NCBI GenBank assembly: GCA_026707745.1
Contig: JAPOWG010000003.1
Location: 1 to 64,000 of the forward strand
Length of the DNA: 64,000 bases
Direction: 5' to 3'
Origin: Chloroflexota bacterium
GTDB taxonomy: Bacteria > Chloroflexota > Anaerolineae > Aggregatilineales > Phototrophicaceae
The position numbers were made by a program, and so were the translations under genes. Each line of letters opens with the position of its first letter. Positions within the stretch are counted from its first letter, which is position 1. The notes under the pieces were generated by a model that was not told where the DNA came from, did no database searches, and worked only from the letters and a program-made list of their open reading frames with translations. Shown here piece after piece: positions 27,105 through 44,955 of this stretch.

Positions 27105-28262
27105 TCAGGGACGCTCTTGCAGTCCGGCGGGCGCCAGTTCTCCAATCGAGTTTTCCAGTTGGTCGGGTGCATCTTCCCTGGCGCTTTTGGCGGTGGCCGG
27201 CAGGGGCGTATCGTATTGATAATCCGGATCGATCTTTTGCCGCCGCCAGGTTTCGCGCATTTCTTTCCAGGCGCCGATCAGCGTACGGGGCTCAGGCATG
27301 TCATGTGCGACGGCCTTATGCAGTTTCTCCAGGTTGTAGCATGGCACGCCGGCAAACATATGGTGTTCGATGTGCCATTCCATGCGCCAGTACAAGAATG
27401 AAAAGAACGGGTTCAATTTCATCGAGCGCACACTTTTACGGAAGTCCGGCGTGTCATCGCGCAAGCCGCAATGCTGTGGCAGATTTACGAAGTACTGAAG
27501 CCAATTGGCCGTAAAAGCGGAGACGGAAAAGATCAACGGCAACACCCATAAGCCGGTGATGACAGCGATGACCAAGATCGCGCCATGAAAAAGCAACAGG
27601 ATGCGTGACCAAACCGTCGCGTTCCGATGCTCTTGCGGCTGATCGCGGTGCAATGCCCTTATCCATTCGTTGGCCGGCGCCTTGTCAGCCTCGGGATCAC
27701 GACCGAAGGCGGCCAATACTGTGAGGATCACCGTAGAAATGAATCCGCCCTTGCCGAAAATGCGCCCCGGCTGCGTCAGCAAATTAATGGTGAACAATTG
27801 CAGCATAAAGGTCGAGGCGAGCGATGGTTCCACTGGCAGCAGCACCTCCCGATCGCCTTCCGGGTGCAGGGTATAGCGATGGTGGTAGGTATGGCTGCTG
27901 GCGTAGTCGAAGGGGTCCCACCAGCCGATCAAGCTGAAGACATAAAGGAAGACCTTGTTAAGCCATTTGGTCTTGAAGACGGTGCCGTGCCCGAGCTCGT
28001 GCGTGCTGTTGCCCCGGACGAAGGCAGTTACTGTACCGTGGCAAAATAGCGCGGCAAGAAACGCCAACCAAATCTCCTGCGACCAAAAGTGAAATGCCAG
28101 CGATCCGGTGATGACGCACAGGACGAGGTGCCCGCCGGCCAGGAACCAGCCTTGGGTGTCGCTGCGCCGAGACAGTTCACGTAGCAAACCGGGTCGCGTC
28201 GGGCAGCGGTACCAGTTGACGCGAAAGGTCTTGCGGACTTCGGACAGTTCTCGATATGTCAT
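27105..28262 (-). CDS. Membrane fatty acid desaturase (tandem copy 3)
   Basis: 385-aa integral-membrane di-iron desaturase. The three histidine boxes are intact: HELGH (88-92), HTYHH (124-128) and HIEHH (297-301), plus an isolated LPQHCG. Membrane segments lie near 47-60, 64-80, 224-240 and 242-258. Such enzymes introduce double bonds or hydroxyls in acyl chains or related lipids using O2 and an electron donor. It is the most downstream of three closely similar genes on the minus strand, 32 bases from the next. It differs from its sisters at the first box context (GNSTHELGHG instead of APHELGHG). Confidence 0.88.
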   Translation of the reverse strand: MTYRELSEVRKTFRVNWYRCPTRPGLLRELSRRSDTQGWFLAGGHLVLCVITGSLAFHFWSQEIWLAFLAALFCHGTVTAFVRGNSTHELGHGTVFKTKWLNKVFLYVFSLIGWWDPFDYASSHTYHHRYTLHPEGDREVLLPVEPSLASTFMLQLFTINLLTQPGRIFGKGGFISTVILTVLAAFGRDPEADKAPANEWIRALHRDQPQEHRNATVWSRILLLFHGAILVIAVITGLWVLPLIFSVSAFTANWLQYFVNLPQHCGLRDDTPDFRKSVRSMKLNPFFSFLYWRMEWHIEHHMFAGVPCYNLEKLHKAVAHDMPEPRTLIGAWKEMRETWRRQKIDPDYQYDTPLPATAKSAREDAPDQLENSIGELAPAGLQERP

Positions 28263-28294
28263 AAAAGGCCTTCGTCCGCTTGACGCGGCATTGT

Positions 28295-29443
28295 TTACGG
28301 ATTGTCTTGCAGTCCCGCGGGCGCCAACTCGCCAATGGAACCTTCCAGCCGTTTGTCGGGCGTACCGTCGCGGACATGCGTCGCCGTCGGCGGCAGCGGC
28401 GTATCGTACTGGTACTCGGGATCAATCTTCTGCCGCCGCCAGGTTTCGCGCATCTCTTTCCAGGCGCCGATCAGCGTTCGCGGCGCCGGCATATCATGGG
28501 CGACTTCTTTGTAAATCTTCTCCAGGTTGTAGCAAGGCACGCCAGCAAACATATGGTGCTCAATATGCCAGCCCATTCGCCAGTACAAAAAATCGAAGAG
28601 CGGATTGAGCTTCATCGAGCGCGTGTTCTTGCGGAAGTCACTGGTATGATCGCGCAAGCCGCAATGCTGTGGCAAGCCGACAAAATAACCCAGCCAGTTG
28701 GCAGTGAAGGCTGATGTCGAGAATATCAGCGGCAAGACCCACAAGCCGGAAACGATGGCGATGAGCAGCACCGAGCCATGGAAAAGCAACAAACTGCGCG
28801 ACCACAGGATCGAGTGGCGATGCTCATCCGGTTGGTCAAGATGCAGCGCCCTTATCCACTCGCTGGAGGATTCGGGCTCGTGACCGAAGGCGTTCATTAC
28901 CGCCAAAATCACCGTGGAGATAAATCCGCCTCCGCTGATGATACGTCGGGGATGCGCCATTACGTTGACGGTGAACAACTGCAATACAAAGGTCGAGGCG
29001 AGTGATGGCTCTATCGGCAGCAGCACCTCGCGATCGCCCTCCGGATGCAGCGTATAGCGATGGTGGTAGGTGTGGCTGCTGGCGTAATCAAAGTGATCCC
29101 ACCAGCCGATCAAGCTGAACAGATACATGAAGAACTTGTTCAGCCATTTCGTCTTGAAGACGGTGCCATGCCCCAGTTCATGCGGCGCGACGCCACGAAA
29201 GAACGTGGTCACGGTGCCGTGACAAAACAACGCGAGCAGCATCACCAGCCAGAGACCTTGCGACCAAAAATAAAAGACGAGCGAACCGGTGAAGATGAAT
29301 AGCGCCAGGTGCCCGCCGGCCTGGAACCAACCCTGCGCGTCGCTGCGCCGCGACAACTCGCGCAGCAAGCCCGGGCGCGTCTTGCACCGATACCAATCGA
29401 CGCGAAAAGTCTTGCGGACTTCGGACAGTTCTGGATAGGTCAT
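28295..29443 (-). CDS. Membrane fatty acid desaturase (tandem copy 2)
   Basis: 382-aa desaturase paralog with PHELGHG, HTYHHRYTLHPEGD and HIEHHMFAGVPCYN boxes, colinear with the copies on each side. The N-terminus (MTYPELSEVRKTFRVDWYRC) and C-terminus (IGELAPAGLQDNP) are nearly shared by all three, so divergence lies mainly in the loop between the second and third boxes. It is 30-32 bases from both neighbours, indicating a single transcript. No electron-donor gene (ferredoxin or cytochrome b5) is adjacent. Confidence 0.88.
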   Translation of the reverse strand: MTYPELSEVRKTFRVDWYRCKTRPGLLRELSRRSDAQGWFQAGGHLALFIFTGSLVFYFWSQGLWLVMLLALFCHGTVTTFFRGVAPHELGHGTVFKTKWLNKFFMYLFSLIGWWDHFDYASSHTYHHRYTLHPEGDREVLLPIEPSLASTFVLQLFTVNVMAHPRRIISGGGFISTVILAVMNAFGHEPESSSEWIRALHLDQPDEHRHSILWSRSLLLFHGSVLLIAIVSGLWVLPLIFSTSAFTANWLGYFVGLPQHCGLRDHTSDFRKNTRSMKLNPLFDFLYWRMGWHIEHHMFAGVPCYNLEKIYKEVAHDMPAPRTLIGAWKEMRETWRRQKIDPEYQYDTPLPPTATHVRDGTPDKRLEGSIGELAPAGLQDNP

Positions 29444-29473
29444 GACAAGGCTCCGTTTGCTTGGCGCGACTGT

Positions 29474-30631
29474 TTAGGGACTTTCTTGCAATCCTGCGGG
29501 CGCCAACTCGCCGATGGAAGCTTCCAGTTGCTTGTCGGGCGCATCGTCGCGGGCGTGTTTTGCTGTCGGCGGCAGGGGCGTATCGAATTGGTAATCGGGG
29601 TCGATCTTCTGTTGCCGCCAGACCCCACGCATCTCTTTCCAGGCGCCAATCAGCGTGCGCGGCTCCGGCATGTCGCGGGCGATTTCTTTGTAAAGCCTGC
29701 TCAGGTTATAGCAGGGAACGCCGGCGTACATGTGATGCTCGATGTGCCAATTCATGCGCCAGTACAGGAACGAGAAAAGCGGGTTGAGCTTGACCGAGCG
29801 GGTATTCTTGCGGAAATCGGGAATATCTTCGCGCAAACCGCAGTGCTGCGTTAGCCCGACGAAATAGCTCAGCCAATTGCCGATGAAGACTGAGACCGAG
29901 AATATCAGCGGCAGCACCCAAAGACCGGTGATGATCGCGATAAGCAGCACTGACCCATGGAAGAGCAAGAGGATGCGCGACCAGCGAATGGAATTACGAT
30001 GTTCCTCCGGCTGGTCGCGATGCAGAGCATTGAGCCATTCATCTATCGGCTTGTCGCCGGGGGGCTCCATACCGAGGGCGCCCAAGACAGTCAGGTACAA
30101 GGTGGAAATCAGACCACCTTTGCCAAATGTGCGGCCGCGCTGTGTCAGCAGATTGATGGTGAAAAGCTGCAGCATGAACGCGGAAGCCAGCGACGGCTCC
30201 AGCGGCAACAGGTTTTCCCGGTCGCCTTCGGGGTGCAAGGTGTAGCGATGGTGATAGGTATGGCTGCTGGCGTAGTCGAAGTGGTCCCACCAGCCGATCA
30301 GGCTGAAAAGATACATGAAAAACTTGTTCAGCCATTTGGTTTTGAAGACGGTGCCATGGCCGAGCTCGTGCGGCGCCGTGCCGGTGAAGAAACTGGTCAC
30401 GGTGCCATGAAAGAATAAGGCGACCAGAAACGCTAGCCACGCTTCCTGCGACCAAAAGGCGAATACCAGCGAACCGGTGATGATGAAGAGCGCCAGGTGG
30501 CCGCCGGCCTGGAACCAGCCCTGGGCATCGCTGCGCCGGGACAGTTCCCGCAGCAGGCCAGGTCGCGTTTGGCAGCGATACCAGTCGACGCGCAGAGTCT
30601 TCCGAACTTCGGACAGTTCTTGATAGCTCAT
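29474..30631 (-). CDS. Membrane fatty acid desaturase (tandem copy 1)
   Basis: 385-aa first gene of the tandem desaturase trio. PHELGHG, HTYHHRYTLH and HIEHHMYAGVPCYN boxes are intact. The ATG at 30631 is chosen because GGGAGG precedes it by seven bases and the protein then begins MSYQELSEVRKT like its sisters; the frame itself is open 24 codons further. Chain-length or position specificity may differ between the copies. The oxygenase gene upstream (30764-31804) is on the same strand. Confidence 0.88.
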   Translation of the reverse strand: MSYQELSEVRKTLRVDWYRCQTRPGLLRELSRRSDAQGWFQAGGHLALFIITGSLVFAFWSQEAWLAFLVALFFHGTVTSFFTGTAPHELGHGTVFKTKWLNKFFMYLFSLIGWWDHFDYASSHTYHHRYTLHPEGDRENLLPLEPSLASAFMLQLFTINLLTQRGRTFGKGGLISTLYLTVLGALGMEPPGDKPIDEWLNALHRDQPEEHRNSIRWSRILLLFHGSVLLIAIITGLWVLPLIFSVSVFIGNWLSYFVGLTQHCGLREDIPDFRKNTRSVKLNPLFSFLYWRMNWHIEHHMYAGVPCYNLSRLYKEIARDMPEPRTLIGAWKEMRGVWRQQKIDPDYQFDTPLPPTAKHARDDAPDKQLEASIGELAPAGLQESP

Positions 30632-30763
30632 GACATGCCTCCCACGGACTTGCTCTTGCTTATGAGGGCAGTGATTATGTGAAGAGCGGCGCTCCAACGA
30701 CAAGCAGACTCGCGGTTCTGCGTGAGCGCGTCAAGTCCCTTCGCTGTCGCCGAGCGGCTCTTG

Positions 30764-32000: not shown

Positions 32001-32825
32001 TCAGGCTGTCATATAAGGCTTTGATCTGTGCCAGATCAGCGGATTCCTGCTGTCATCATCTAACACATCGCCGATTTCCAGCGATTCAAAAACATCCTGC
32101 GGCAAGATATTTTTGATGCCATTGAAGGTGCAGCCATCGGGCATATAGCCGCAGGTCATCGCCCGCCGCCAGCCCGGCGTCATATTCGCCCCCGCGCCAT
32201 GTGGCATCAAGCCGTTGTGGAAGGAGCAAGACCCGGCCTTCATCGGCGCCGCCACCGAATGTAATTCCGCCCATTGCGGATAAATGTCGAAGAGGTCGCT
32301 GATATTCGGGCCAATGTTCGAAGTGTCAAACGTGGCTGTCTTGTGCGCGCCGGGCAGGAAGTAGAGACAGCCGTTTTGCAGCGTGGCATCGTCCAGCGCC
32401 ACCCATATACTGATGGCATCGCGCGAGGAATAGGACCAGAGCGGATTATCCAGATGCCAACCGGTCGGGTTCGCCCAGGGCTGCTTGATCAATGCTTGAT
32501 CGTGCCAGATGCGCATGCCGTCCACGCCGGCTAGTTCGCTCGCCATCTTGCCTAGACGCGGGTCCCACATGAGTTGGCGCATGCCCGCGTGATCGGTCCA
32601 TAAGTTGATGCGCTGCACGAAGCGCCGGCGGCGATACTTGCCCTCTTCGCTCTCGTCGTCCAGTTTCCCGCCGTCGGCCAGCAGCCGATTCTCGCGCCGC
32701 GCCACCGCATCGTCAACGTTGCGCCGCCAGGTTTCCAGCTCGTCCGGCGACAAGAAATCCTCAATGACGATGTAGCCATTCTCTTGATAAAAGTTGACCT
32801 GCTCTTGTGTCAATGCATTTTTCAC
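32001..32825 (-). CDS. Phytanoyl-CoA dioxygenase, 'WHLDN' subgroup (copy A)
   Basis: 274-aa oxygenase with the metal motif His124-x-Asp126 (TGWHLDNPLWSYSSRDA), distal His209 (MPHGAGANMTPGWRRAM) and Arg220/221. One of three close paralogs (with 32844-33680 and 41704-42531) sharing QALIKQPWANPTGWHLDN and the phrase SCSFHNGL.(P/A)HGAGANMTPG. GTG start with a purine-rich GAGGGCGAG upstream. It follows copy B by 18 bases, so the two are co-transcribed. Substrate unknown. Confidence 0.85.
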   Translation of the reverse strand: MKNALTQEQVNFYQENGYIVIEDFLSPDELETWRRNVDDAVARRENRLLADGGKLDDESEEGKYRRRRFVQRINLWTDHAGMRQLMWDPRLGKMASELAGVDGMRIWHDQALIKQPWANPTGWHLDNPLWSYSSRDAISIWVALDDATLQNGCLYFLPGAHKTATFDTSNIGPNISDLFDIYPQWAELHSVAAPMKAGSCSFHNGLMPHGAGANMTPGWRRAMTCGYMPDGCTFNGIKNILPQDVFESLEIGDVLDDDSRNPLIWHRSKPYMTA

Positions 32826-32843
32826 TTGATCTCGCCCTCGGAC

Positions 32844-33680
32844 TCAATCTTTTGCGCCGACATAAGCTTTTGTCTCATGCCAGATCAACGGATTGATCGC
32901 GTCATTGTCCAGCACATCGCCGATCTCCAGCGACTCGAAGTAGGCCTGCGGCAAGGCACTCTGCTTGCCATTGAAGGTAGAGCCATCGGGCATATAGCCG
33001 CAGGTCATCGCCCGCCGCGTGCCCGGCGTCATATTGGCCCCGGCGCCATGCGGCATCAAACCGTTGTGGAAGGAGCAAGATCCCGCTTTCATCGAAGCCG
33101 CTACCGACTGCAATTCCGCCCACTGTGGATAGAGTTCAAATAGGTCGCTGATATTCGAGCCGATCCCGGCATGCTCGAAAGAGGCCGTCTTGTGCGCGCC
33201 CGGCAGGAAATAGAGGCAACCGTTTTCGCGCGTGGCGTCGTCCAGCGCCACCCAAATCGTGATGGCGTCGCGCGATGAGTAAGACCAGGAGGCATTGTCC
33301 AAATGCCAGCCGGTCGGGTTGGCCCAGGGCTGCTTGATCAACGCCTGATCATGCCAAATGCGCATGCCGTCCACGCCCGTCAAATCGCTTATCATTTTAC
33401 CCAGACGCGGATCCCACATGAGCTCGCGCATGCCAGCGTGATCAATCCACAGATTCTGCCGATGTACGAAGACCTTGTCAAAATAGGCGCTTTCTTCGTC
33501 GACTATGCGCTCGGAGGCCAGCATGCCATCAGCGGTAACGCGCCCTTCGCGCTGCGCCACGGCGTCGTCGACATTCCGCCGCCAGGTTTGCAGCTCATCC
33601 GGCGTCAGGAAATCCTCGATGATGATGTAGCCGTTCTCCTGGTAGAACTCAATCTGTTCCTGAGTCAACTTGGTATTCAT
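32844..33680 (-). CDS. Phytanoyl-CoA dioxygenase, 'WHLDN' subgroup (copy B)
   Basis: 278-aa paralog with His126-x-Asp128 in TGWHLDNASWSYSS and the HGAGANMTPGTRRAM distal region. The ATG at 33680 gives the N-terminus MNTKLTQEQIEFYQENGYII, the same as the other two copies; the open frame continues 26 codons upstream into the promoter zone and is not used. It is divergent from the ugp-like operon with 151 bases between starts. Confidence 0.85.
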   Translation of the reverse strand: MNTKLTQEQIEFYQENGYIIIEDFLTPDELQTWRRNVDDAVAQREGRVTADGMLASERIVDEESAYFDKVFVHRQNLWIDHAGMRELMWDPRLGKMISDLTGVDGMRIWHDQALIKQPWANPTGWHLDNASWSYSSRDAITIWVALDDATRENGCLYFLPGAHKTASFEHAGIGSNISDLFELYPQWAELQSVAASMKAGSCSFHNGLMPHGAGANMTPGTRRAMTCGYMPDGSTFNGKQSALPQAYFESLEIGDVLDNDAINPLIWHETKAYVGAKD

Positions 33681-33762
33681 AGCCTCGGACCTTCCCATCA
33701 GTCTCGTCAACAGATTGTAACCTGCCATTCGTCCCAAGACAACATCACTTTGTCGCAAATGT

Positions 33763-33831: not shown

Positions 33832-35175
33832 ATGATTCCCAAACTACGTCTAGCTATGATTTTTGTTCTGCTTTTGAGCTTGCTGACAGGAATTGCCGGC
33901 GCGCAAGATTCCGTCAGCATCACGATTCGTTGTATCGCCAGCCCGCCGGAGGAAGACTGGCGCTGCAACAATTTCGCGGAAGTCGAGGCCGATGTTGAAG
34001 CTGCACTCGGCATCGAGATCGACTTGAACCTGATCCAGGACAACGCCAGTTGGGGCGACTACAAGAACGAATTCGTTCTGGCATCGGAAGCGGGCGAAGC
34101 GCCTGATATCATCTTGTCCGGTCACGAAGACATTGGCGCCTGGGCGCCGGCTGGGTTCATCATCCCGCTGGACGACATGATCCCGAATCACGCCGAATTC
34201 GAGGACATCGTGCCCTCGCTTTGGGATTCGCATCACTACAACGGCGTAATCTATGGCATCCCGCAAGACGCCGAAGCGCGCCCGATCTTCTATAGCAAGC
34301 TTCTGCTGCGCGATCTGGGCTGGAGCGAAGAAGATATTGATTCCTTGCCCGACCGCGTCGTCGCCGGTGAATTCACCTTTGCCGATATGCTGGCGACCGC
34401 CGTAGAAGCAATTGACGAGGGCGTCGTCGACGCCGGCAATGGTTGGTGGCATCGTCCGAGCAATGGTCCCGACTTCCTCTACTACTACTACGGCCATGGC
34501 GGCGAAGTCCTCGATATGGACGGCAACCTGGTCGTGGACCGCGATGCTATGGTCGCGGCCTATGAATTGCTGGGCGGCGCGGTGGCGTCCGGGGCGCTGC
34601 GCTCCGACATCATCGGGCTGGACTGGAACGAAGTCTGGCATCCGAGCGTGGGCAGCGCCGATACCGTGCTATTTGCCGCCGGCGGCACCTGGAATTGGCC
34701 CAACTGGGCACTTAACTATGTTGCCGACAAGGGTGGCGACGAGTATCTCTTCGAGAATGTCGGGCTGACGCTCATCCCGGCTATGGGTACGGGCAAAGCT
34801 ATCACCCTGACGCACCCGCTCACCTACATGATCAGCAGCGGCAGCGCGCATCCCGATGTGGCTATGGCGCTGATCGCCGCGATCACCACGCCGGAAGCCA
34901 ACAACCGTCACGCGATTGACAGCTTCCATCTGGGTATCCTGAACGCGCAGTTGGAATCCGAAGCCTACGCCAACAACCGGCTGTTGAGCAGCGCGCACTA
35001 CATGCTGGACCATACGACGGCGCTGCCCAACCATCCCGGTTGGAACGCCTGGTCCGGCGCCTACTTCCTGGGCATTCAGGCGGTAGAAACCGGCGAGGCG
35101 GACGCGGCGGGCGCGGCCGATATCGCCATCGCGCAAATGCAGAATGAATTGGGCGACGGCATCACAGTTCGCTAG
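33832..35175 (+). CDS. Carbohydrate-type ABC substrate-binding protein (ugpB position)
   Basis: 447-aa family 1 solute-binding protein. Signal peptide with core MIFVLLLSLLTGIAGA ends before QDSVS. Segments 'EFVLASEAGEAPDIILSGHEDIGAW' (partly) and 'GVIYGIPQDAEARPIFYSK' are typical. First gene of an operon with two permeases, an ATPase and a glycerophosphodiesterase, the order found for ugpBAECQ. The ligand may thus be a glycerol phosphate or a glycerophosphodiester, but the protein is not close enough by eye to UgpB to name it. Confidence 0.85.
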   Translation: MIPKLRLAMIFVLLLSLLTGIAGAQDSVSITIRCIASPPEEDWRCNNFAEVEADVEAALGIEIDLNLIQDNASWGDYKNEFVLASEAGEAPDIILSGHEDIGAWAPAGFIIPLDDMIPNHAEFEDIVPSLWDSHHYNGVIYGIPQDAEARPIFYSKLLLRDLGWSEEDIDSLPDRVVAGEFTFADMLATAVEAIDEGVVDAGNGWWHRPSNGPDFLYYYYGHGGEVLDMDGNLVVDRDAMVAAYELLGGAVASGALRSDIIGLDWNEVWHPSVGSADTVLFAAGGTWNWPNWALNYVADKGGDEYLFENVGLTLIPAMGTGKAITLTHPLTYMISSGSAHPDVAMALIAAITTPEANNRHAIDSFHLGILNAQLESEAYANNRLLSSAHYMLDHTTALPNHPGWNAWSGAYFLGIQAVETGEADAAGAADIAIAQMQNELGDGITVR

Positions 35176-35212
35176 TCGGCTGTCTGTCGTTCGCACAAGT
35201 GCTTCAAAGTTG

Positions 35213-35242
35213 GTCAAGGGGAGCGATCCCGCTCCCCTTGAC
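35213..35242 (+). terminator. Strong hairpin between binding protein and permease genes
   Basis: A 13-bp perfect stem (gtcaaggggagcg / cgctccccttgac) with a 4-base loop follows the binding-protein gene by 37 bases. There is no T-tract after it, so it is more likely an mRNA-stabilising or partial attenuation stem that keeps binding-protein transcript above permease transcript than a full terminator. Confidence 0.55.
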
Positions 35243-35331
35243 TGGCAAGCAGGCCAGGCTCTGCATTCCTAAAATAATATGGGAGCGCTCGCCCTTTTAA
35301 TTGGGCCTCCGGCAAGGCGCGAGTTTTACTT

Positions 35332-36315
35332 ATGTCCGAGCAAGCAAAAACCAGCGATTCGTCAGTTCCTCGAGGCATCCTCGGAAGCAACGCCCTGAAG
35401 TCATATCTGGGCGCCTACGGATTTATGGCGCCGGCGGGCATTCTCGTCATCGTCTTTTTCTTGATCCCGGTGGCCATCGTTCTCTACTTGAGTGTCACTA
35501 ATCTGGCGAGTTCAAACTTCACTTCAGACCTCGCCAAGATGGAATTTGTCGGTCTGAAGAATTATCAAACGCTGCTAAATGATCAATTTGCGCGGAAAAT
35601 CTTCTTTAATACCATCTTTTATGTGTTGGTCACGCTCTCTATTTTCAATGTTTCGCTGGCGCTGATCGTTTCCCTGCTCACCACGCATATTGACCGCAAC
35701 GCGGGCTTTGTCTTTCGCGCGCTGTGGATCTTGCCGCGCATCACCTCGCCCGTTGTTTACATTTTGATTTGGAAGCGAATGACAGCGGAAGCGCCCTTTG
35801 GGATTATCAACCAGTTCAACGAGGCGTTCGGGCAGCCTACTTACAACTATCTTGCCACCAATCCCTGGGTATTCGTGGTAGTCGTGAACGGATTTATCGG
35901 CGTGTCCTTTGGCATGATTATTTTCACTTCCGCTATCGAGTCGATCCCGAAAGACCTGCTTAATGCCTCGCTGGTCGACGGTTCGTCGAAGCTGCAGCGC
36001 ATCCGCTATGTCATCATGCCATTGATCCGTTGGCCGCTGCTCTTTGTCGTGACGTATCAGACGCTGTCGTTGCTGACGTCATTCGTGGAGATTCAGTTGT
36101 TGACGGACGGCGGTCCCGGTCTTTATCGCACGGAGGTATGGTCCTTGACGGCCTATCACCGCGCCTTGTCGAATTATTTTGGCAATGCCCAGTGGGGTTA
36201 CGGCTCGGCTTTTGCGGTGCTGCTGGTGATGATCGGGGTGGTGCTGGCTGTGATTTATATGCGGGTATTCCGTTTTGACGAATTGATCGCCGAGCCGCGG
36301 GTGGAAGCGCTATGA
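35332..36315 (+). CDS. ABC transporter permease, MalF/UgpA type
   Basis: 327-aa inner-membrane permease. First helix near residues 39-60 (YGFMAPAGILVIVFFLIPVAIVLYL in part), EAA-loop segment LNASLVDGSSKLQRIRYVIMPLI, and the family end 'TDGGPGLYRTEVW'. It overlaps the next permease gene by four bases (ATGA), so the two are coupled. Second gene of the ugp-like operon. Confidence 0.87.
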   Translation: MSEQAKTSDSSVPRGILGSNALKSYLGAYGFMAPAGILVIVFFLIPVAIVLYLSVTNLASSNFTSDLAKMEFVGLKNYQTLLNDQFARKIFFNTIFYVLVTLSIFNVSLALIVSLLTTHIDRNAGFVFRALWILPRITSPVVYILIWKRMTAEAPFGIINQFNEAFGQPTYNYLATNPWVFVVVVNGFIGVSFGMIIFTSAIESIPKDLLNASLVDGSSKLQRIRYVIMPLIRWPLLFVVTYQTLSLLTSFVEIQLLTDGGPGLYRTEVWSLTAYHRALSNYFGNAQWGYGSAFAVLLVMIGVVLAVIYMRVFRFDELIAEPRVEAL

Positions 36316-37889
36316 AGGCGCGGGATGCAGTCTTCGATACGCTCAAAGTCAAAGTCGACGAGCGCCCACAGAGCTTGCCGCAAGATCTGGCGGAAGCCCT
36401 GCGGCTGGGCGCGATAAGCATTATTGTGTTGCTCGTCGCCGCCTTCTTGTTCAGCGGGGTTGTTGGTCCGCTTTTTGCCCTGGGCGGCGTCGAAGAGACG
36501 GTGATGGATGTTTTGACCCGCCTCAGCTTGCTGGCGCTGCCCTTTGTCGCTTATATCGGCGGGGCGAGCGTCGCCCGCCGATATACAAGATCCGATATCG
36601 CGCGGGCGCTGGGATTGGCTTTTAGCAGCACAGTGCTATTGTTCGCGCTCATTTCCGCTGGCTATTATGTTCTTGACTATGGCGTATTCGCGCCGCGGCC
36701 ATCTCTGCAAATGACGCTCAGCCAGACTGAGGCGGGCATTCGCGTTGAGGCCATCGTCGCCGGGGGCGCCGCCGAAACAGCGGGCCTGCAAGTCGGTGAT
36801 GTCATCACGGCGATCCGGCGCGACGCGGTGGACCTGGAAGCTTTCAACAAGCGGCTTGGCCAGGCATTGGAGGGCGACCCGCTGCGTCTGCGCTTCAGGC
36901 GCGGCGACGAGGAACTTCAGGAGACGGTCCGGGTCGTTCTGGTTTCCGATAAGCAGCTTGGCGCTTTATGGCCCGGTTTGTCGCTGGCGCTGGCATTCAC
37001 CGCGATTATCGTATTTTTGCCCGGTCATTGGGCGCCTTATATTGCGCTGGTTGGCCTGTTATCACCTTTGATCGTGGGCTATTTTTGGGTGATCACCGCG
37101 ACGTTCAGCTTCCGCACCGAAGGGTTGGTGCCGCTCGATGGTAATGACAATTTTGGCGGCTTTACCCTGAAAAACTGGGAGTCGATCTTCGTCGGCAATA
37201 TCGCCGGCTTGGAATTCAATATTGTCCCTATTTTCATGACCTCACTGGCAATCGCAGCGGTTATGACCTTCGTGGTGTTATTGGTATCCTCGATGGCCGG
37301 TTATGCTTTGTCGCGGATGCACTTCCCGGGGCGGCGTTTCTTTCTCTCGTTCACGCTCATCCTTCACGGCTTTCCAGCCATCACTTTGCTCATTCCCATC
37401 TTCTTTGTATTGCTGCGTCTCGGCAACATTCCGATCATCGGCGATTTGATCGGCTTCAATACCATTGGCGGCATTGCGCTGGTCATGGTCGCCTTTCAAC
37501 TGCCGCTCGGCGTTTGGTTGATGAAAGGATTCTTCGACAACATCCCCTGGGATATGGAGCGGTCCGCGCTCATAGACGGCGCCTCGCGCTGGCGTACCTA
37601 CTGGGAGATTTTATTGCCACAGATACGTCCGGGCTTATTGGCTTTGGGTATCTTCGCCTTCATCGGCGGCTGGAACGCATATATTATCCCGGCCACCTAT
37701 TCCATCGGCTCCGGCGTGAGCAATTTGCCCGTCTTCCTAGAGGAGCTGATAGACGCGACCGCGCCTGTCGATTGGAATCAAGTGGCGGCGGTCGGCTTGT
37801 TCCAATTGATACCCATTTTCATCTTCTTTATCTTCGCCCAGGAATACCTGCTGAACATTTATGCCGGCGGGACGAAAGGCAGTTCCTGA
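36312..37889 (+). CDS. MalG-type ABC permease with inserted PDZ domain
   Basis: 525 aa against about 280 for the family. The C-terminal half (from about 241) is a normal MalG/UgpE permease with EAA loop ERSALIDGASRWRTYWEILLP. In front lie three extra membrane segments (about 33-58, 70-88, 98-121), a PDZ domain (about 133-210: GIRVEAIVAGGAAETAGLQVGDVITAI with the typical 'GL.VGD.I' core), and one more helix (217-237). If the N-terminus is cytoplasmic the PDZ domain faces outside, where the binding protein docks, and the permease core keeps its normal topology. I know no such permease; the reading is continuous with no sign of frameshift. ATGA overlap with the upstream gene. Confidence 0.82.
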   Translation: MKARDAVFDTLKVKVDERPQSLPQDLAEALRLGAISIIVLLVAAFLFSGVVGPLFALGGVEETVMDVLTRLSLLALPFVAYIGGASVARRYTRSDIARALGLAFSSTVLLFALISAGYYVLDYGVFAPRPSLQMTLSQTEAGIRVEAIVAGGAAETAGLQVGDVITAIRRDAVDLEAFNKRLGQALEGDPLRLRFRRGDEELQETVRVVLVSDKQLGALWPGLSLALAFTAIIVFLPGHWAPYIALVGLLSPLIVGYFWVITATFSFRTEGLVPLDGNDNFGGFTLKNWESIFVGNIAGLEFNIVPIFMTSLAIAAVMTFVVLLVSSMAGYALSRMHFPGRRFFLSFTLILHGFPAITLLIPIFFVLLRLGNIPIIGDLIGFNTIGGIALVMVAFQLPLGVWLMKGFFDNIPWDMERSALIDGASRWRTYWEILLPQIRPGLLALGIFAFIGGWNAYIIPATYSIGSGVSNLPVFLEELIDATAPVDWNQVAAVGLFQLIPIFIFFIFAQEYLLNIYAGGTKGSS

Positions 37890-37938
37890 TACCGTTTCGC
37901 GCAAGGGTTGTTGTGGCAGAGCGAGAAAGACGCATGCG

Positions 37939-39018
37939 ATGAAAGTGACAATCGATAATCTCAGCAAGAAATTTGGCGACGTTGTCGGCGTCGAGAACTT
38001 GACCCTGCATATTGAAGACGGTGAATTCGTCGCCTTTCTGGGACCCTCCGGCTGCGGCAAGACGACCACGCTGCTTACCCTGGCGGGCATCTACAAACCC
38101 ACCGACGGGGTCATTAGGTTTGGCGAACGTATCGTCAACACGGTTCAGCCGAAAGACCGCAATATCGGCATGGTCTTCCAGAGTTACGCGCTTTACCCTC
38201 ATATGACCGTCTTCCAGAATATCGCCTATCCGCTCAAACTGAAAAAAGTGTCGAAGGCCGACCAACACGACCGCGTCCGGCAGGTCGCCAATGTGATGGG
38301 TATCGGTGAGTTACTGGATCGCCGACCGGGTCAACTGTCGGGCGGCCAACAACAGCGGGTGGCTTTGGGTCGGGCTTTGGTGAAAGAACCGGACGTGCTG
38401 CTCTTTGACGAACCGCTGTCCAATCTGGACGCGCGGCTGCGGCTGACTATGCGCGGCGAGATCAAACACTTGCAGAAAGACCTCGGCATCACATCGATTT
38501 ATGTGACGCACGATCAGGTGGAAGCGATGACTATGGCTGACCGAATCGCGGTGATGAGCGGCGGTCATTTGCAAGCCTTCGATTCGCCCGATGAGTTATA
38601 TGACCGGCCGAAGACGCAGTTCGTCGCGGGCTTCGTTGGTAACCCGCCAATGAACTTCGTCGATGTCAGCGTCCAAGCGTCCAATGGCCGCTTCTTTGCC
38701 GAAACGGAGTCGCTTCGTCTGGAAGTACAAAAGGCGCGCGGCGCGCCGCCTGCCAGTCATGATGGTCCGGTCGTGATGGGCATTAGGCCGGAGGATATCC
38801 AAATAGCGAGCAATGGGTTGGTATCGGGCGAGATATTTGTCGTTGAGCCGCTGGGACGCGAAGACCTGATCGACGTGCGCGTGGGCCGGCACAGTTTCCT
38901 GCTGCTCGCGGACACGGAAAACCGGCACCAAGCCGGGGAGCGTGTCTCGCTTGCCTTTGATATGGAACAAGTGCAGTTCTTCGACCCGGAAACAGAAAAA
39001 TCGCTTTTGTGGCAGTAG
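37939..39018 (+). CDS. ABC transporter ATPase, MalK/UgpC type
   Basis: 359-aa ATPase that powers carbohydrate importers. Walker A GPSGCGKTT (35-43), signature LSGGQQQRVALGRAL (133-147), Walker B VLLFDEPLSNLD with Asp157-Glu158, H-loop in VTHDQ. The C-terminal 120 residues form the OB-type regulatory domain of the MalK group (VMGIRPEDIQI). The ATG at 37939 is the family start; the frame is open 26 codons earlier. It is the only CUT1-type ATPase gene in the window and may also serve the other permease sets. Confidence 0.9.
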   Translation: MKVTIDNLSKKFGDVVGVENLTLHIEDGEFVAFLGPSGCGKTTTLLTLAGIYKPTDGVIRFGERIVNTVQPKDRNIGMVFQSYALYPHMTVFQNIAYPLKLKKVSKADQHDRVRQVANVMGIGELLDRRPGQLSGGQQQRVALGRALVKEPDVLLFDEPLSNLDARLRLTMRGEIKHLQKDLGITSIYVTHDQVEAMTMADRIAVMSGGHLQAFDSPDELYDRPKTQFVAGFVGNPPMNFVDVSVQASNGRFFAETESLRLEVQKARGAPPASHDGPVVMGIRPEDIQIASNGLVSGEIFVVEPLGREDLIDVRVGRHSFLLLADTENRHQAGERVSLAFDMEQVQFFDPETEKSLLWQ

Positions 39019-39039: not shown

Positions 39040-40464
39040 ATGCTGGATATGCGCTTGCAGGGGCTAGACCGAGCGGTAGCCTCTCCTTCGGATCACGAAC
39101 TTGCCTTGCGCTATGCAGCTTTTATCCGCTTTGACGCGAAAGAACCATTCCTGCCATCGGTTGTCGGCTATAGCGTCTTCCGCGAGAGCAGTTCATCGGC
39201 TTCTTTTCCTCGCGACATTCGACTGAAGGACAGTATCGCCTTTGCCATCGAATACGCCATTTGGTGGGATTGGGATATCGGGCATCTCTATGAACTTGAG
39301 CATATCTGGGTTTATGTCGATTGCGACGGGGTTGTGGTCGATACCGAAGCGAGTTGGCATGGCGATTACAATCGGATGGTGGATGGTGGCCAGCAGCCCC
39401 ATTTTGAAGACAATCGCCCCGCGCTGTATTCAGAACCCGGCAAACATGCTTTTGCCCCCTCGCCCAGTTGGCTGCTGGAAAGAAAAGCCAAGACCCGGGC
39501 AAGCTGCGGTCGTCACGCCGGTAAAATGGGCGTGCATGTAACGCCTTTGTTTGAAGGAATCATTCAGGAACGGGTACCGCTGAACAATCGTCTGGTTCAT
39601 ACCTATCTGGAACGATTGCGCTTCGAGCCGAGTTTCGATTTTTCCAAGGCGTTTGACCTGCGGGAGGCGATCTTTGTCCCTTGGCGGCAGCTCTGTGAGT
39701 GGATACCCCGACGAATTAGTGCGTGGGTTGAGCAACTGCGGCATACGATTCCGCCAGAACTGCGCCGTGTGTTGCGCATCGCGCATCGCGGCGCATCGGC
39801 TTATGCCCAGGAAAACTCGGCAGCGGCATTGCGGGTAGCCGCCGAGCTCGGCGCCGATATGGTCGAAATTGACATCCGCGCCACCGCCGATGATGTGCCT
39901 GTTGTCATCCATGATAGTAGTCTGAGACGAGTCTACGGCATTGATGGAAATGTCTCGGACTCTAGTATGAACGAGCTGAGACGTTTGGATACAAACCGGG
40001 GCAAGATCATCAACTTTGAAGAAGCCGTCAGCTTGTGCCGCCGCCTCGGCTTGGGTTTGTATTTGGATATCAAGCAACTCACCGCGCGGTCGGCTCTATC
40101 GCTGATGGAGACGCTTGATGAATATGACTATCTGCGAGACACGATCTTCGGCTCGTTTCGGCCGGATTATCTTGCTCATATAAAGGCGGCTCGATCCGAT
40201 GCTCAGACTTCGATATTGTTCGGCGCTGTCAATATTGACCCAGTGAAGCTGGCTCAGTCGATTGGGGCGGATTACGTCCATCCCTGCTGGGAAAATCGAG
40301 CCGAGCAGCCGCATCGTTTGCTCAGGCCCGAGTGGATAGAGGCGGTGCGGGAGGCAGAATTGGGGATTGTCTGCTGGCATGAAGAGCGCCCATCAGAAAT
40401 CGTCGCTTTGAAGGCGCTGGGCGTCGATGCCATCTGTTCCGACAAGCCCGAGTTATTGATGTAG
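39040..40464 (+). CDS. Glycerophosphodiester phosphodiesterase with unknown N-terminal domain
   Basis: 474 aa. Residues about 245-474 form a GDPD domain with catalytic and metal residues: His249-Arg250 (AHRGASAYAQENS), Glu276 and Asp278 (VEIDIR), His291-Asp292 (VIHDSSL). It would split glycerophosphodiesters into glycerol 3-phosphate and an alcohol. The first 240 residues are not a GDPD part. They contain 'EYAIWWDWDIGHLYELEHIWVYVD', a pattern that recalls the hydrophobic strand and WEHV motif of Vps62/NPP1-like folds, but this is a guess. No signal peptide. It occupies the ugpQ position of the operon, 21 bases after the ATPase gene. Confidence 0.8.
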   Translation: MLDMRLQGLDRAVASPSDHELALRYAAFIRFDAKEPFLPSVVGYSVFRESSSSASFPRDIRLKDSIAFAIEYAIWWDWDIGHLYELEHIWVYVDCDGVVVDTEASWHGDYNRMVDGGQQPHFEDNRPALYSEPGKHAFAPSPSWLLERKAKTRASCGRHAGKMGVHVTPLFEGIIQERVPLNNRLVHTYLERLRFEPSFDFSKAFDLREAIFVPWRQLCEWIPRRISAWVEQLRHTIPPELRRVLRIAHRGASAYAQENSAAALRVAAELGADMVEIDIRATADDVPVVIHDSSLRRVYGIDGNVSDSSMNELRRLDTNRGKIINFEEAVSLCRRLGLGLYLDIKQLTARSALSLMETLDEYDYLRDTIFGSFRPDYLAHIKAARSDAQTSILFGAVNIDPVKLAQSIGADYVHPCWENRAEQPHRLLRPEWIEAVREAELGIVCWHEERPSEIVALKALGVDAICSDKPELLM

Positions 40465-41703: not shown

Positions 41704-42531
41704 TCAGGCCGTCACGTAGGATTTGGTCTTGTGCCAAATCAAGGGGTTTAAGCTATCGTCGTCCAGCACGTCGCCTATCTCCAGCGTATCAAGGTAGGTC
41801 TGCGGAAGGATATTGCTTGTGCCGTTAAAAACGCAGCCATCAGGCATATAGCCGCAGGTCATCGCCCGCCGCGTGCCCGGCGTCATGTTGGCGCCGGCGC
41901 CATGCGCCAGCAAGCCATTATGGAAGGAGCAGGATCCGGCGGGCATCGGCGCAGCCACGGACTGGATTTCCGCCCACTGCGGATAGACGTCGAGCAGTTC
42001 GCCCGTATTCATGCCGATGCTTGAATTGTCAAGGGTGGCGGTCTTGTGTGTGCCCGGCAGAAAGTAGAGACAGCCATTGTCTCGCGTGGCGTCGTCCAGC
42101 GCGACCCAAATGCTGATGGCATCGCGCGATGAATAAGACCAGTAAGGGTTGTCCAGGTGCCAGCCGGTGGGGTTGGCCCAGGGCTGTTTGATCAAAGCTT
42201 GATCGTGCCAAATGCGCATGCCGTCGACCCCGGCCAGCTCGCTCGCCAGCTTCCCCAGTCGCGGATCCAGCATTAGTCCGCGCATGCCCTCGTGGTCGGT
42301 CCAGAGGTTGATGCGCTGCACGAACACACGATTATAATAGCTGTTTTCTTCACTATCATCATCCCGCCAGCCGGGGCCGTCGGCCAGCCGGCGATCTTCG
42401 CGCTTTTCCACCGCGTCGTCTACATGCTGGCGCCAGGTTTCCAGCTCGGCTGGCGTCAGAAAGTCCTCGATGATGATATAGCCGTTGTCTTGATAGAAAT
42501 TAATTTGTTCTTGTGTCAGATCAGTTTTCAT
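41704..42531 (-). CDS. Phytanoyl-CoA dioxygenase, 'WHLDN' subgroup (copy C)
   Basis: 275-aa oxygenase paralogous to copies A and B on the other side of the ugp-like operon. His125-x-Asp127 in TGWHLDNPYWSYSS, distal HGAGANMTPGTRRAM and the same beginning LTQEQINFYQDNGYII are intact. The three copies therefore bracket the transporter operon from both ends. A good promoter precedes it (42568-42596). Substrate unknown. Confidence 0.85.
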   Translation of the reverse strand: MKTDLTQEQINFYQDNGYIIIEDFLTPAELETWRQHVDDAVEKREDRRLADGPGWRDDDSEENSYYNRVFVQRINLWTDHEGMRGLMLDPRLGKLASELAGVDGMRIWHDQALIKQPWANPTGWHLDNPYWSYSSRDAISIWVALDDATRDNGCLYFLPGTHKTATLDNSSIGMNTGELLDVYPQWAEIQSVAAPMPAGSCSFHNGLLAHGAGANMTPGTRRAMTCGYMPDGCVFNGTSNILPQTYLDTLEIGDVLDDDSLNPLIWHKTKSYVTA

Positions 42532-42596: not shown

Positions 42597-42720
42597 CTAC
42601 ACTGTTTGCGAACCGCATATAGACGCTTCATTCATTCCCGTCTGAAAAAACGCTATTCGACAGGGCTGCCGCCTTGTGTTAGATTCTCCCTAAGCCATTT
42701 ATGTGGTTGGAGACCGCGCC

Positions 42721-44955
42721 ATGGAGCGATCGATTCGATTTGATCTTTTGGCCAATCGAGACATTAACAAAGAGACCTTCGTCGAGCCTTGGCCCGAGGC
42801 CGGCTTGATCGTCGCCGACAGCCCTTACGATCCACAACCGAGCATCTCGATCGACGACGACAAGGTCGTCGAAATGGACGGGGTGCCGCGCGCCGACTTT
42901 GACGCGCTGGATCTCTTTATCGTTTCCCATGCCCTCGATCTTGATGTCGCAGTCGCTGCGATGGCGATACCGTCAAAGGAATACGCGCGCATGCTGGCGG
43001 ATATCAACGTGCCGCGCCAGGACATCGCTCGTCTTATCGCGGGTTGTACGCCGGCCAAGCTCACCGACATCATTCGCCACATGAATGTGCTGGAGATGAT
43101 GATGGGGCTGGCGAAGATGCGCGTCAGGCGCATGCCGGCCAATCAGGCGCACGTGACCAACTGGCGGGAGCACCCGGCCTTGCTGGCGGCGGACGCGGCC
43201 GAAGCGGCATTGCGCGGCTTCGCCGAAGTCGAAACAACCGTGCGCATAGCGCGCTTTGCGCCATTTAACGCGCTGGCTATTCTCATCGGCACACAGACCG
43301 GACGCGGCGGTGTTTTGACGCAATGCTCGGTGGAAGAAGCGCTGGGCTTGCGACTGGCGATGAAAGGGCTGACCAGCTATGCGGAAACCCTTTCCGTTTA
43401 CGGCACCGAATTGACCTTCGTAGACGGTGATGATACGCCTTGGTCCAAAGCCTTCCTGGCCTCAGCTTATGCCTCGCGTGGGGTGAAGATCCGCTTCACC
43501 TCCGGCACGGGCTCCGAGGCGCTAATGGGGCGGGCTGAACAGAAATCAATGCTTTACCTGGAAGCGCGCTGTTTGCTGGTGGTGAAGGGCGCGGGCAGCC
43601 AGGGCGTCCAGAACGGCTCCATCTCGTGCATTGCCTTGCCGGAAGCGCTGCCCGGCGGCGTACGCGCAGTACTTGCCGAGAACTTGCTAGCATCCATGCT
43701 CGGTTTGGAAGTGGCATCCGGCAACGATGCGCTGGCATCGCATTCCAGCATCCGCAAGACGGCTAAGCTCATGCTGCAGTTCATCCCCGGCACCGACTTT
43801 ATTTTTTCTGGCTATAGCGCGATACCCAAACGCGACAACCTGTTTGGTGGCGGCAACTTCGATGCCGAAGACTTTGACGATTACAATGTGCTGCAGCGCG
43901 ATATGCAGATCGACGGCGGCGTCAAGCCAATCCGCGAAGACGAGGCGCTCGACATCCGCCGCAAGGCGGCGGAAGCGATTCAAGCGGTCTACCGCGAATT
44001 GGATTTGCCCGCCATCTCGGACGAAGAAGTAGCTGCGGCTACCGTGGCCCACAGTAGCGACGACATGCCCGAGCGCGATATCGTGCCCGATCTGGAGGCT
44101 GCTGACCGATTCATGGCAAGCGATTCCGATTTCGTTGCGGTCATGCGCGCCTTGCAGCGGGGAGGTTTCAGCGAGGTCGCCGACAATATCCTGGAAATGG
44201 GTCGGCAGCGCATCGCGGCGGACTATCTGCAACCGGCCGCCATCTTTGATGCCGACTTCAAAGTGCAAAGCGCCATCAACGATCCCAACAACTATACTGG
44301 TCCCGGCAGCGGGTATCGACCGCAGGGGCAGCGCTGGAAAGACATACAAGCCATACCCCAGGCGAAACCGCCAACCGGATTCGTCGAGCCGCATGTTGGG
44401 GAACCGCTGTCGCGCCTGGTTGAGATCGGCCCGGCTGCGCGAGGGAGGGGCAAAGAAGTCGTCCTGGCGCTGGGACCGGCATTTGGACGCGTGCTTGGCA
44501 AGACCATCGGTGGCTTGGAACACGAAGAAGTGCTGAAGGCGATCCTCAGCGGCATCGCGGGCGAGGGCGCTCTAGCGCGGATTATCCGTGTCTATCACTC
44601 CTCCGATTGCGCCGCGATTGGTTTTGTCGGCGCCCGGCTCAGCGGCAGCGGCATCGCTATCGGCTTGCAGTCACGCGGGACGGCGGTGATTCATCAGAAG
44701 GACTTGGCGCCGCTCAATAATCTGGAGCTTTTCCCACAATCGCCCAGCTTGACAATAGCTACCTACGAGAATATCGGAGTTAACGCCGCGCGTTACGCGC
44801 TTGGCAAGTCGACAGTGCCGGTTTCGGTCAAGATCGACAACGGCGCGCGCCTGCGCTTGATCGTTAAAACCGCGCTGCTGCATCGGCGCGAAACGGACGA
44901 GGTCTGCCCCGGTCAAGCGCCTGTGGAGTGCCTCTTTGATTGGGAGCCGGACTGA
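42721..44955 (+). CDS. B12-dependent diol/glycerol dehydratase, fused large and medium subunits
   Basis: 744 aa. Residues 1 to about 545 match the large (catalytic) subunit of glycerol/propanediol dehydratase: MERSIRFDLLANRDINKETFVEPWPEAG at the start, then 'FTSGTGSEALMG' and 'NGSISCIALPEALPGGVRAV'. The remainder, after VQSAINDPNNYTGPGSGYRPQG, matches the medium subunit (DEVVLALGPAFG-like 'KEVVLALGPAFG', 'GGLEHEEVLKAILSGI'). The enzyme uses adenosylcobalamin to dehydrate glycerol or 1,2-diols to aldehydes. GGAG lies eight bases before ATG 42721; a GTG six codons earlier is less likely. The stop overlaps the small-subunit ATG (TGATG). Confidence 0.88.
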   Translation: MERSIRFDLLANRDINKETFVEPWPEAGLIVADSPYDPQPSISIDDDKVVEMDGVPRADFDALDLFIVSHALDLDVAVAAMAIPSKEYARMLADINVPRQDIARLIAGCTPAKLTDIIRHMNVLEMMMGLAKMRVRRMPANQAHVTNWREHPALLAADAAEAALRGFAEVETTVRIARFAPFNALAILIGTQTGRGGVLTQCSVEEALGLRLAMKGLTSYAETLSVYGTELTFVDGDDTPWSKAFLASAYASRGVKIRFTSGTGSEALMGRAEQKSMLYLEARCLLVVKGAGSQGVQNGSISCIALPEALPGGVRAVLAENLLASMLGLEVASGNDALASHSSIRKTAKLMLQFIPGTDFIFSGYSAIPKRDNLFGGGNFDAEDFDDYNVLQRDMQIDGGVKPIREDEALDIRRKAAEAIQAVYRELDLPAISDEEVAAATVAHSSDDMPERDIVPDLEAADRFMASDSDFVAVMRALQRGGFSEVADNILEMGRQRIAADYLQPAAIFDADFKVQSAINDPNNYTGPGSGYRPQGQRWKDIQAIPQAKPPTGFVEPHVGEPLSRLVEIGPAARGRGKEVVLALGPAFGRVLGKTIGGLEHEEVLKAILSGIAGEGALARIIRVYHSSDCAAIGFVGARLSGSGIAIGLQSRGTAVIHQKDLAPLNNLELFPQSPSLTIATYENIGVNAARYALGKSTVPVSVKIDNGARLRLIVKTALLHRRETDEVCPGQAPVECLFDWEPD

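Follow-up and report, generated by a model that had tools for sequence, protein, structure and literature searches.

A MalG/UgpE-type ABC importer permease with an HtrA-type PDZ domain, gained once in one Chloroflexota order and possibly docking a soluble binding protein

The window analysed, a stretch of 64,000 nucleotides from a Chloroflexota bacterium, contains an ABC importer operon (33832-39018) in which a substrate-binding protein (SBP), a MalF-type permease, a second permease and an ATPase follow each other in a row (Table 1). The operon is complete, as an earlier note made from the sequence had described, and the frame of the second permease is uninterrupted, from the ATG at 36312 to the stop codon at 37887-37889, coding for one protein of 525 residues. 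Its start codon overlaps the stop codon of the upstream MalF gene, so that the N-terminal extension of four transmembrane helices (TM) and a PDZ domain lies within the coding frame as read. The SBP has a Sec signal peptide ending in AGA-Q without a lipobox cysteine (type judged by eye). The MalF-type subunit is not long enough to hold a P2 domain of the E. coli type.

Table 1. Features of the importer operon and of its PDZ-bearing permease, positions in the window
Feature	Position	Strand	Evidence
Substrate-binding protein (SBP_bac_1)	33832-35175	+	Pfam PF01547, 83.5 bits
MalF/UgpA-type permease, 327 aa	35332-36315	+	PF00528; UgpA and MalF as best NCBIfam models, neither reaching its cut-off
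MalG/UgpE-type permease of 525 aa, extended N-terminally by 4TM+PDZ	36312-37889	+	Pfam, structure models
Extra helices TM1-TM3, residues 22-121	36375-36674	+	AlphaFold models, hydropathy
PDZ domain, HtrA type, residues 127-212	36690-36947	+	Pfam, structural alignment, phmmer to DegQ PDZ
Extra helix TM4, residues 216-235, leading back into the cytoplasm	36957-37016	+	Model, hydropathy
MalG-like six-helix core, residues 241-525, EAA loop about 405-438	37032-37886	+	PF00528, alignment to 3rlf_G
MalK/UgpC-type ATPase	37939-39018	+	ABC_tran, OB_MalK, TOBE_2; UgpC model 411.9 bits, cut-off 432
GDPD-family phosphodiesterase without an evident signal peptide	39040-40464	+	PF03009, 116.5 bits

Closely similar phytanoyl-CoA-dioxygenase-like genes are found on either side of the transporter operon (32001-33758 and 41704-42531, minus strand), the first two identified by search (PF05721) and the third by similarity. 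Elsewhere in the window, 42703-44955 codes for the large and medium subunits of propanediol/glycerol dehydratase fused in one 750-residue protein, and 27105-30703 (minus strand) holds three tandem ORFs that resemble one another and, by eye, fatty acid desaturases.

The earlier note had placed three extra helices, a PDZ domain and a fourth helix before the permease core, and Pfam, the AlphaFold models and hydropathy agree on this arrangement. Three Pfam PDZ models match the protein, PDZ_2 (PF13180) at residues 134-207, with 29 bits where the curated cut-off is 27, and two more; PDZ (PF00595) scores 24.2 bits (cut-off 23.2). On the same protein BPD_transp_1 matches residues 327-512 with 53.6 bits (curated cut-off 26.4), and both domains are thus found above cut-off. 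Of the two AlphaFold models, the first was built from 30 close sequences and is confident in the N-terminal part and poor in the core, and the second, from 45 more varied sequences (window and loci), reached a mean pLDDT of 85.1. Both contain helices at 22-57, 63-91 and 96-121, a PDZ fold at 129-211 and a helix at 216-235, followed by the core helices. The fold that the note had expected at residues 133-210 is therefore predicted, with a pLDDT of about 95 in the PDZ part and ten-residue block means of 92-96 across residues 131-210 in the second model. In Foldseek the core finds MalG and SugB, and the middle part finds DegS-type PDZ chains. In VIA-align comparisons the predicted PDZ superimposes on the peptide-bound HtrA2 PDZ 2pzd_A (Z 15.2, rmsd 1.2 A, 80 residues, 28% identity), and the predicted core on MalG 3rlf_G (Z 24.3, rmsd 3.7, 274 residues) and SugB 8hps_B (Z 23.2). 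The extra helices 22-121 found no match among the VIA-align rows listed, where this region was barely probed. In sequence the PDZ is also nearest to HtrA-type PDZs (phmmer match to the DegQ PDZ, E 1.6e-6). On these models, the protein is a normal MalG/UgpE-type core preceded by four predicted extra helices and an HtrA-type PDZ domain.

MalG of E. coli MalFGK2 and SugB of mycobacterial LpqY-SugABC share with it the six-helix core and the EAA loop, but have neither extra helices nor PDZ, and their alignments cover only about residues 228-525 of the model. The PDZs of HtrA-family proteases (HtrA2/Omi, DegS, DegQ, Rv0983) are alike in fold and sequence; unlike those proteins, the permease has no protease domain and carries its PDZ between membrane helices.

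The EAA loop of such permease cores is cytoplasmic. Counting helices back from it, from TM8 to TM4, places the TM4-TM5 loop inside and the PDZ outside, and from this helix parity we infer that the PDZ lies outside the cytoplasm, which supports the outward-facing domain of the earlier note. The distribution of lysine and arginine fits: five in the N-terminal tail and three in the TM2-TM3 loop, both predicted inside, and none in the outer TM1-TM2 loop. The short TM4-TM5 loop has no charged residue and is neutral for topology. The number of membranes around Chloroflexi cells, one or two, is described as disputed (PMC8871954).

The assignment to the MalG/UgpE class of type I ABC importer permeases, made in the note under the name of a sugar permease, stands, based on a Pfam core above cut-off, a MalG fold on the predicted model and an operon that also codes for the SBP, another permease and the ATPase. 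That the substrate is a sugar is uncertain. The permease stays below the cut-offs of both NCBIfam equivalogs (58.4 bits against 297 for UgpE and 97.7 against 261 for MalG), the subunits resemble Mal and Ugp about equally below such cut-offs, and a GDPD gene adjoins the operon. A UgpC-like ATPase, a UgpA-like MalF subunit and the adjoining GDPD gene recall the sn-glycerol-3-phosphate importer UgpBAEC; on the other hand, all subunits are below the cut-offs and the SBP is closer to MalE. To our knowledge, Ugp has no PDZ. The GDPD gene is linked in some relatives, PDZ-bearing and PDZ-less alike, which hints at glycerol phosphates as possible substrates. Glycerol-3-phosphate and maltose ABC importers have been reported from sponge-associated Anaerolineae and Caldilineae in one study (PMC6306507), which does not imply an overlap with the genus studied here.

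The order was covered by 154 genomes; 49 of them have the N-terminal module (E <= 1e-18), always on this permease, and in the genus of the source genome 28 of 34 do. A close relative of the core was present in 51 of the 154, namely the 49 with PDZ plus G040, which has complete upstream sequence and no PDZ, and G531, where the locus is cut by a contig end. Samples of the phylum (n=400) and of the class (n=396) were evenly drawn and incomplete. In the former, nine genomes have a close core, the source genome and eight without PDZ, and the module (E < 1e-13) appeared in the source genome only, the other matches listed covering the PDZ part alone or little more. In the latter the module was found in 13 genomes, every one inside the order. 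Neither sample yielded a PDZ-permease from beyond the order. Furthermore, scanning the contigs of 84,980 species with six peptide patterns from the PDZ-permease, a search that would miss distant fusions in other phyla, gave 38 loci, among them three PDZ-less (L072, L073 and L075) and one cut (L074). By length and identities the contig of locus L069, labelled Bacteroidetes, is G500:C153, and as G500 is placed in the same family as the source genome, the locus was counted as a mislabelled bin. The same layout in so many independent genomes excludes an assembly artefact or chance; the case that the note would have taken as refutation, a PDZ absent from all homologues together with an assembly error, did not arise. 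No PDZ-bearing ABC importer permease is described among the literature matches listed, subscription papers being mostly outside this scope, which agrees with the note's statement that it knew of no such sugar permease.

In a tree of the core only (46 rows), a branch with support 98/97 sets 26 PDZ-bearing proteins apart from the others. G040 is the next branch, with the class-level PDZ-less proteins outside it, so one change of state suffices, and no reversion to a PDZ-less state is seen inside the PDZ clade. The root is weakened by an outgroup of long-branched paralogues, although more distant PDZ-less orthologues give the same rooting. The PDZ was gained once, within one Chloroflexota order, beside the PDZ-less sister G040 of the same order. 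Median dN/dS was 0.152 for the PDZ (65 of 66 pairs usable) and 0.040 for the core (46 of 66), indicating that the PDZ is under purifying selection, weaker than that on the core. The N-terminal part has in fact diverged more quickly than the core (mean pairwise identities are 0.31 in TM1-3 and 0.48 in the PDZ against 0.70), as would be expected from a near-neutral accretion retained by chance, but a dN/dS of about 0.15 in the PDZ and a clade without reversions make this explanation extremely improbable.

Conservation of single residues was assessed in 14 representatives with less than 75% identity. The hydrophobic groove is retained: L132 in 12 of 14 (the rest I, V), M/F134 and G142 in all, V145 in 13 (the other I) and L178 in 12 (the rest F, I). 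The carboxylate-binding loop of PDZ domains has the form x-phi-G-phi with a conserved glycine. We assigned the corresponding GLGF-like loop, in a putative register, to S131-L132-Q133-M134. In that register the pattern is S-L-[QE]-[MF]: both hydrophobic positions are retained, whereas the glycine is present in 1 of 14 and replaced by Q or E in 13. Besides the groove a second surface, of basic residues, is conserved (R170, R194 and R197 invariant, R169 and R192 in 13 of 14), and R169, R170, R192 and R194 are unusual for a PDZ when judged against HtrA sequences. A groove is thus retained, although its choice of ligand may be unusual. The extra helices and the PDZ could also form a structural module that stabilises the permease, its dimer or its placement in the membrane, for example through the basic patch, and binds no peptide. 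The basic residues outside the usual PDZ consensus, the replaced loop glycine and the short linkers that hold the PDZ between helices would fit such a role. We consider it unlikely, given that the hydrophobic groove is conserved even so and that PDZ-less orthologues in other orders are presumed functional.

The earlier note had proposed that the PDZ could bind a peptide tail, perhaps of the binding protein or of a protease. The SBPs do have a conserved C-terminal tail (hydrophobic-x-hydrophobic-[RKQ]-like) which ends in R, K or Q in most, an ending not typical of HtrA-PDZ ligands. None of 30 other SBPs of the source genome, compared by eye, ended alike, so the tail marks the cognate SBP subfamily. 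However, it is equally conserved with or without a PDZ on the permease, PDZ-less outgroups included, so it is not kept for the PDZ; its conservation is no evidence of binding, and we dropped this ligand. The MalF-type subunits also have a conserved C-terminus, P[RK][VI][ED]xL-like (..VEAL), which resembles a PDZ ligand, but it should be cytoplasmic and it occurs in PDZ-less operons as well, and it too was rejected. Nor is there a linked protease as partner: in 17 PDZ-bearing and 7 PDZ-less loci no operon gene accompanies the PDZ specifically, and apart from the four transporter genes and GDPD, all of which occur with and without the PDZ, no family is present in at least five of these loci. The PDZ might instead regulate or place the transporter by binding some other protein outside the cytoplasm, be it a chaperone, a protease of the HtrA/CTP type, a protein of the cell surface or a fragment of a signal peptide. 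Its HtrA class and hydrophobic groove residues are compatible with this, as are the further PDZ proteins of the source genome, which has 11 PDZ matches in all and a PDZ on only one of its permeases. The lack of a PDZ-specific gene in the operons speaks against it, as does the co-divergence described below, and we regard such a partner as an unlikely one. In a separate protein, L076 (G000:C118:93797-94984), a single frame of 451 codons combines a signal-peptide-like start with four PDZ matches in tandem.

The lipid anchors of the SBPs were compared as well, judged by eye. Where the N-terminus could be read, the SBP of PDZ-bearing operons has no lipobox in 42 of 42 cases, whereas that of PDZ-less operons is lipidated in 6 of 6, a perfect association that would be explained if the PDZ were a tether replacing the lost lipid anchor of the cognate SBP. 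The census of whole genomes indicates a trait of the lineage instead, and demotes this reading. The source genome has a lipobox pattern in 1 of 82 SBP N-termini (85 matches; 2 of the 82 unjudgeable), sampled SBPs from other PDZ-bearing genomes lack it in 31 of 31 (17/17 in five genomes and 14/14 in two more), and outside the order 14 of 14 SBPs sampled from PDZ-less genomes are lipoproteins (7/7 in three genomes and 7/7 in G258). The PDZ-less order-mate G040 has unlipidated SBPs in 8 of 8 sampled. Since it does without a PDZ, and since a single permease of the source genome has one while nearly all of its SBPs are unlipidated, the PDZ is not needed for such SBPs, and replacement of an anchor is highly improbable. 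The unlipidated SBPs probably came first and the PDZ later and in one system only, the last step being deduced, as the cognate SBP of G040 is cut by a contig end. Nearly all SBP_bac_1 proteins of G000, G038, G047, G051, G061, G062, G504, G532 and G040 have Sec or Tat signals and no lipobox. Loss of the lipoprotein pathway was discarded as the cause of the missing lipoboxes, Lgt being present in 27 of 27 genomes. In the genus of the source genome Lgt is a weak match in two pieces (G000:C118:106294-107265), whereas most genomes outside it give a single strong one.

We have also compared distances between 19 PDZ-bearing operons by partial correlation, controlling for the rest of the operon. The PDZ gave a partial r of 0.32 with the SBP (0.22-0.35 in a jackknife), 0.30 with MalF and 0.11 with the ATPase, and the flanking TM helices gave -0.14 with the SBP. 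Random sets of 84 columns reached the PDZ-SBP value of 0.32 in 2 of 300 draws from the core, 6 of 300 from the ATPase and 3 of 300 from MalF, in shuffles that ignore phylogeny within a small, exploratory test. These values are weakly suggestive that PDZ divergence tracks the SBP and MalF more than the remaining operon would account for, the signal of MalF being as strong as that of the SBP. The test covered operon members, and it points to them.

Our preferred reading, held tentatively, is that of an importer channel subunit which gained a PDZ once and uses it, most likely, to dock the soluble SBP at the outer mouth; both the contact and its mechanism we infer. An unlinked protein partner and a structural role come next, at the same level. 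In the docking reading the PDZ would sit next to the channel's outer mouth, where it would offer an added surface to the soluble SBP, perhaps jointly with the outer loops of MalF. The P2 domain of E. coli MalF is Ig-like, and differs from the PDZ in subunit, fold and place in the chain. It is likewise an extra extracytoplasmic domain, although carried by the other channel subunit, and it makes contact with the binding protein MalE (PMC3150292). As with this unrelated domain, docking by the PDZ could raise the local concentration of the SBP or guide it onto the channel. That capture of soluble SBPs by the PDZ is a second docking solution, independent of MalF-P2, in a lineage already without SBP lipid anchors, is rather doubtful at present.

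The PDZ is a domain added to a very well studied class of transporters. The six nearest PDZ-less orthologues are close, with core identities of 52-61%, and the role of an extracytoplasmic docking domain could thus be tested by deletion or swap. The finding further highlights an order in which almost all SBPs are secreted without lipid anchors.
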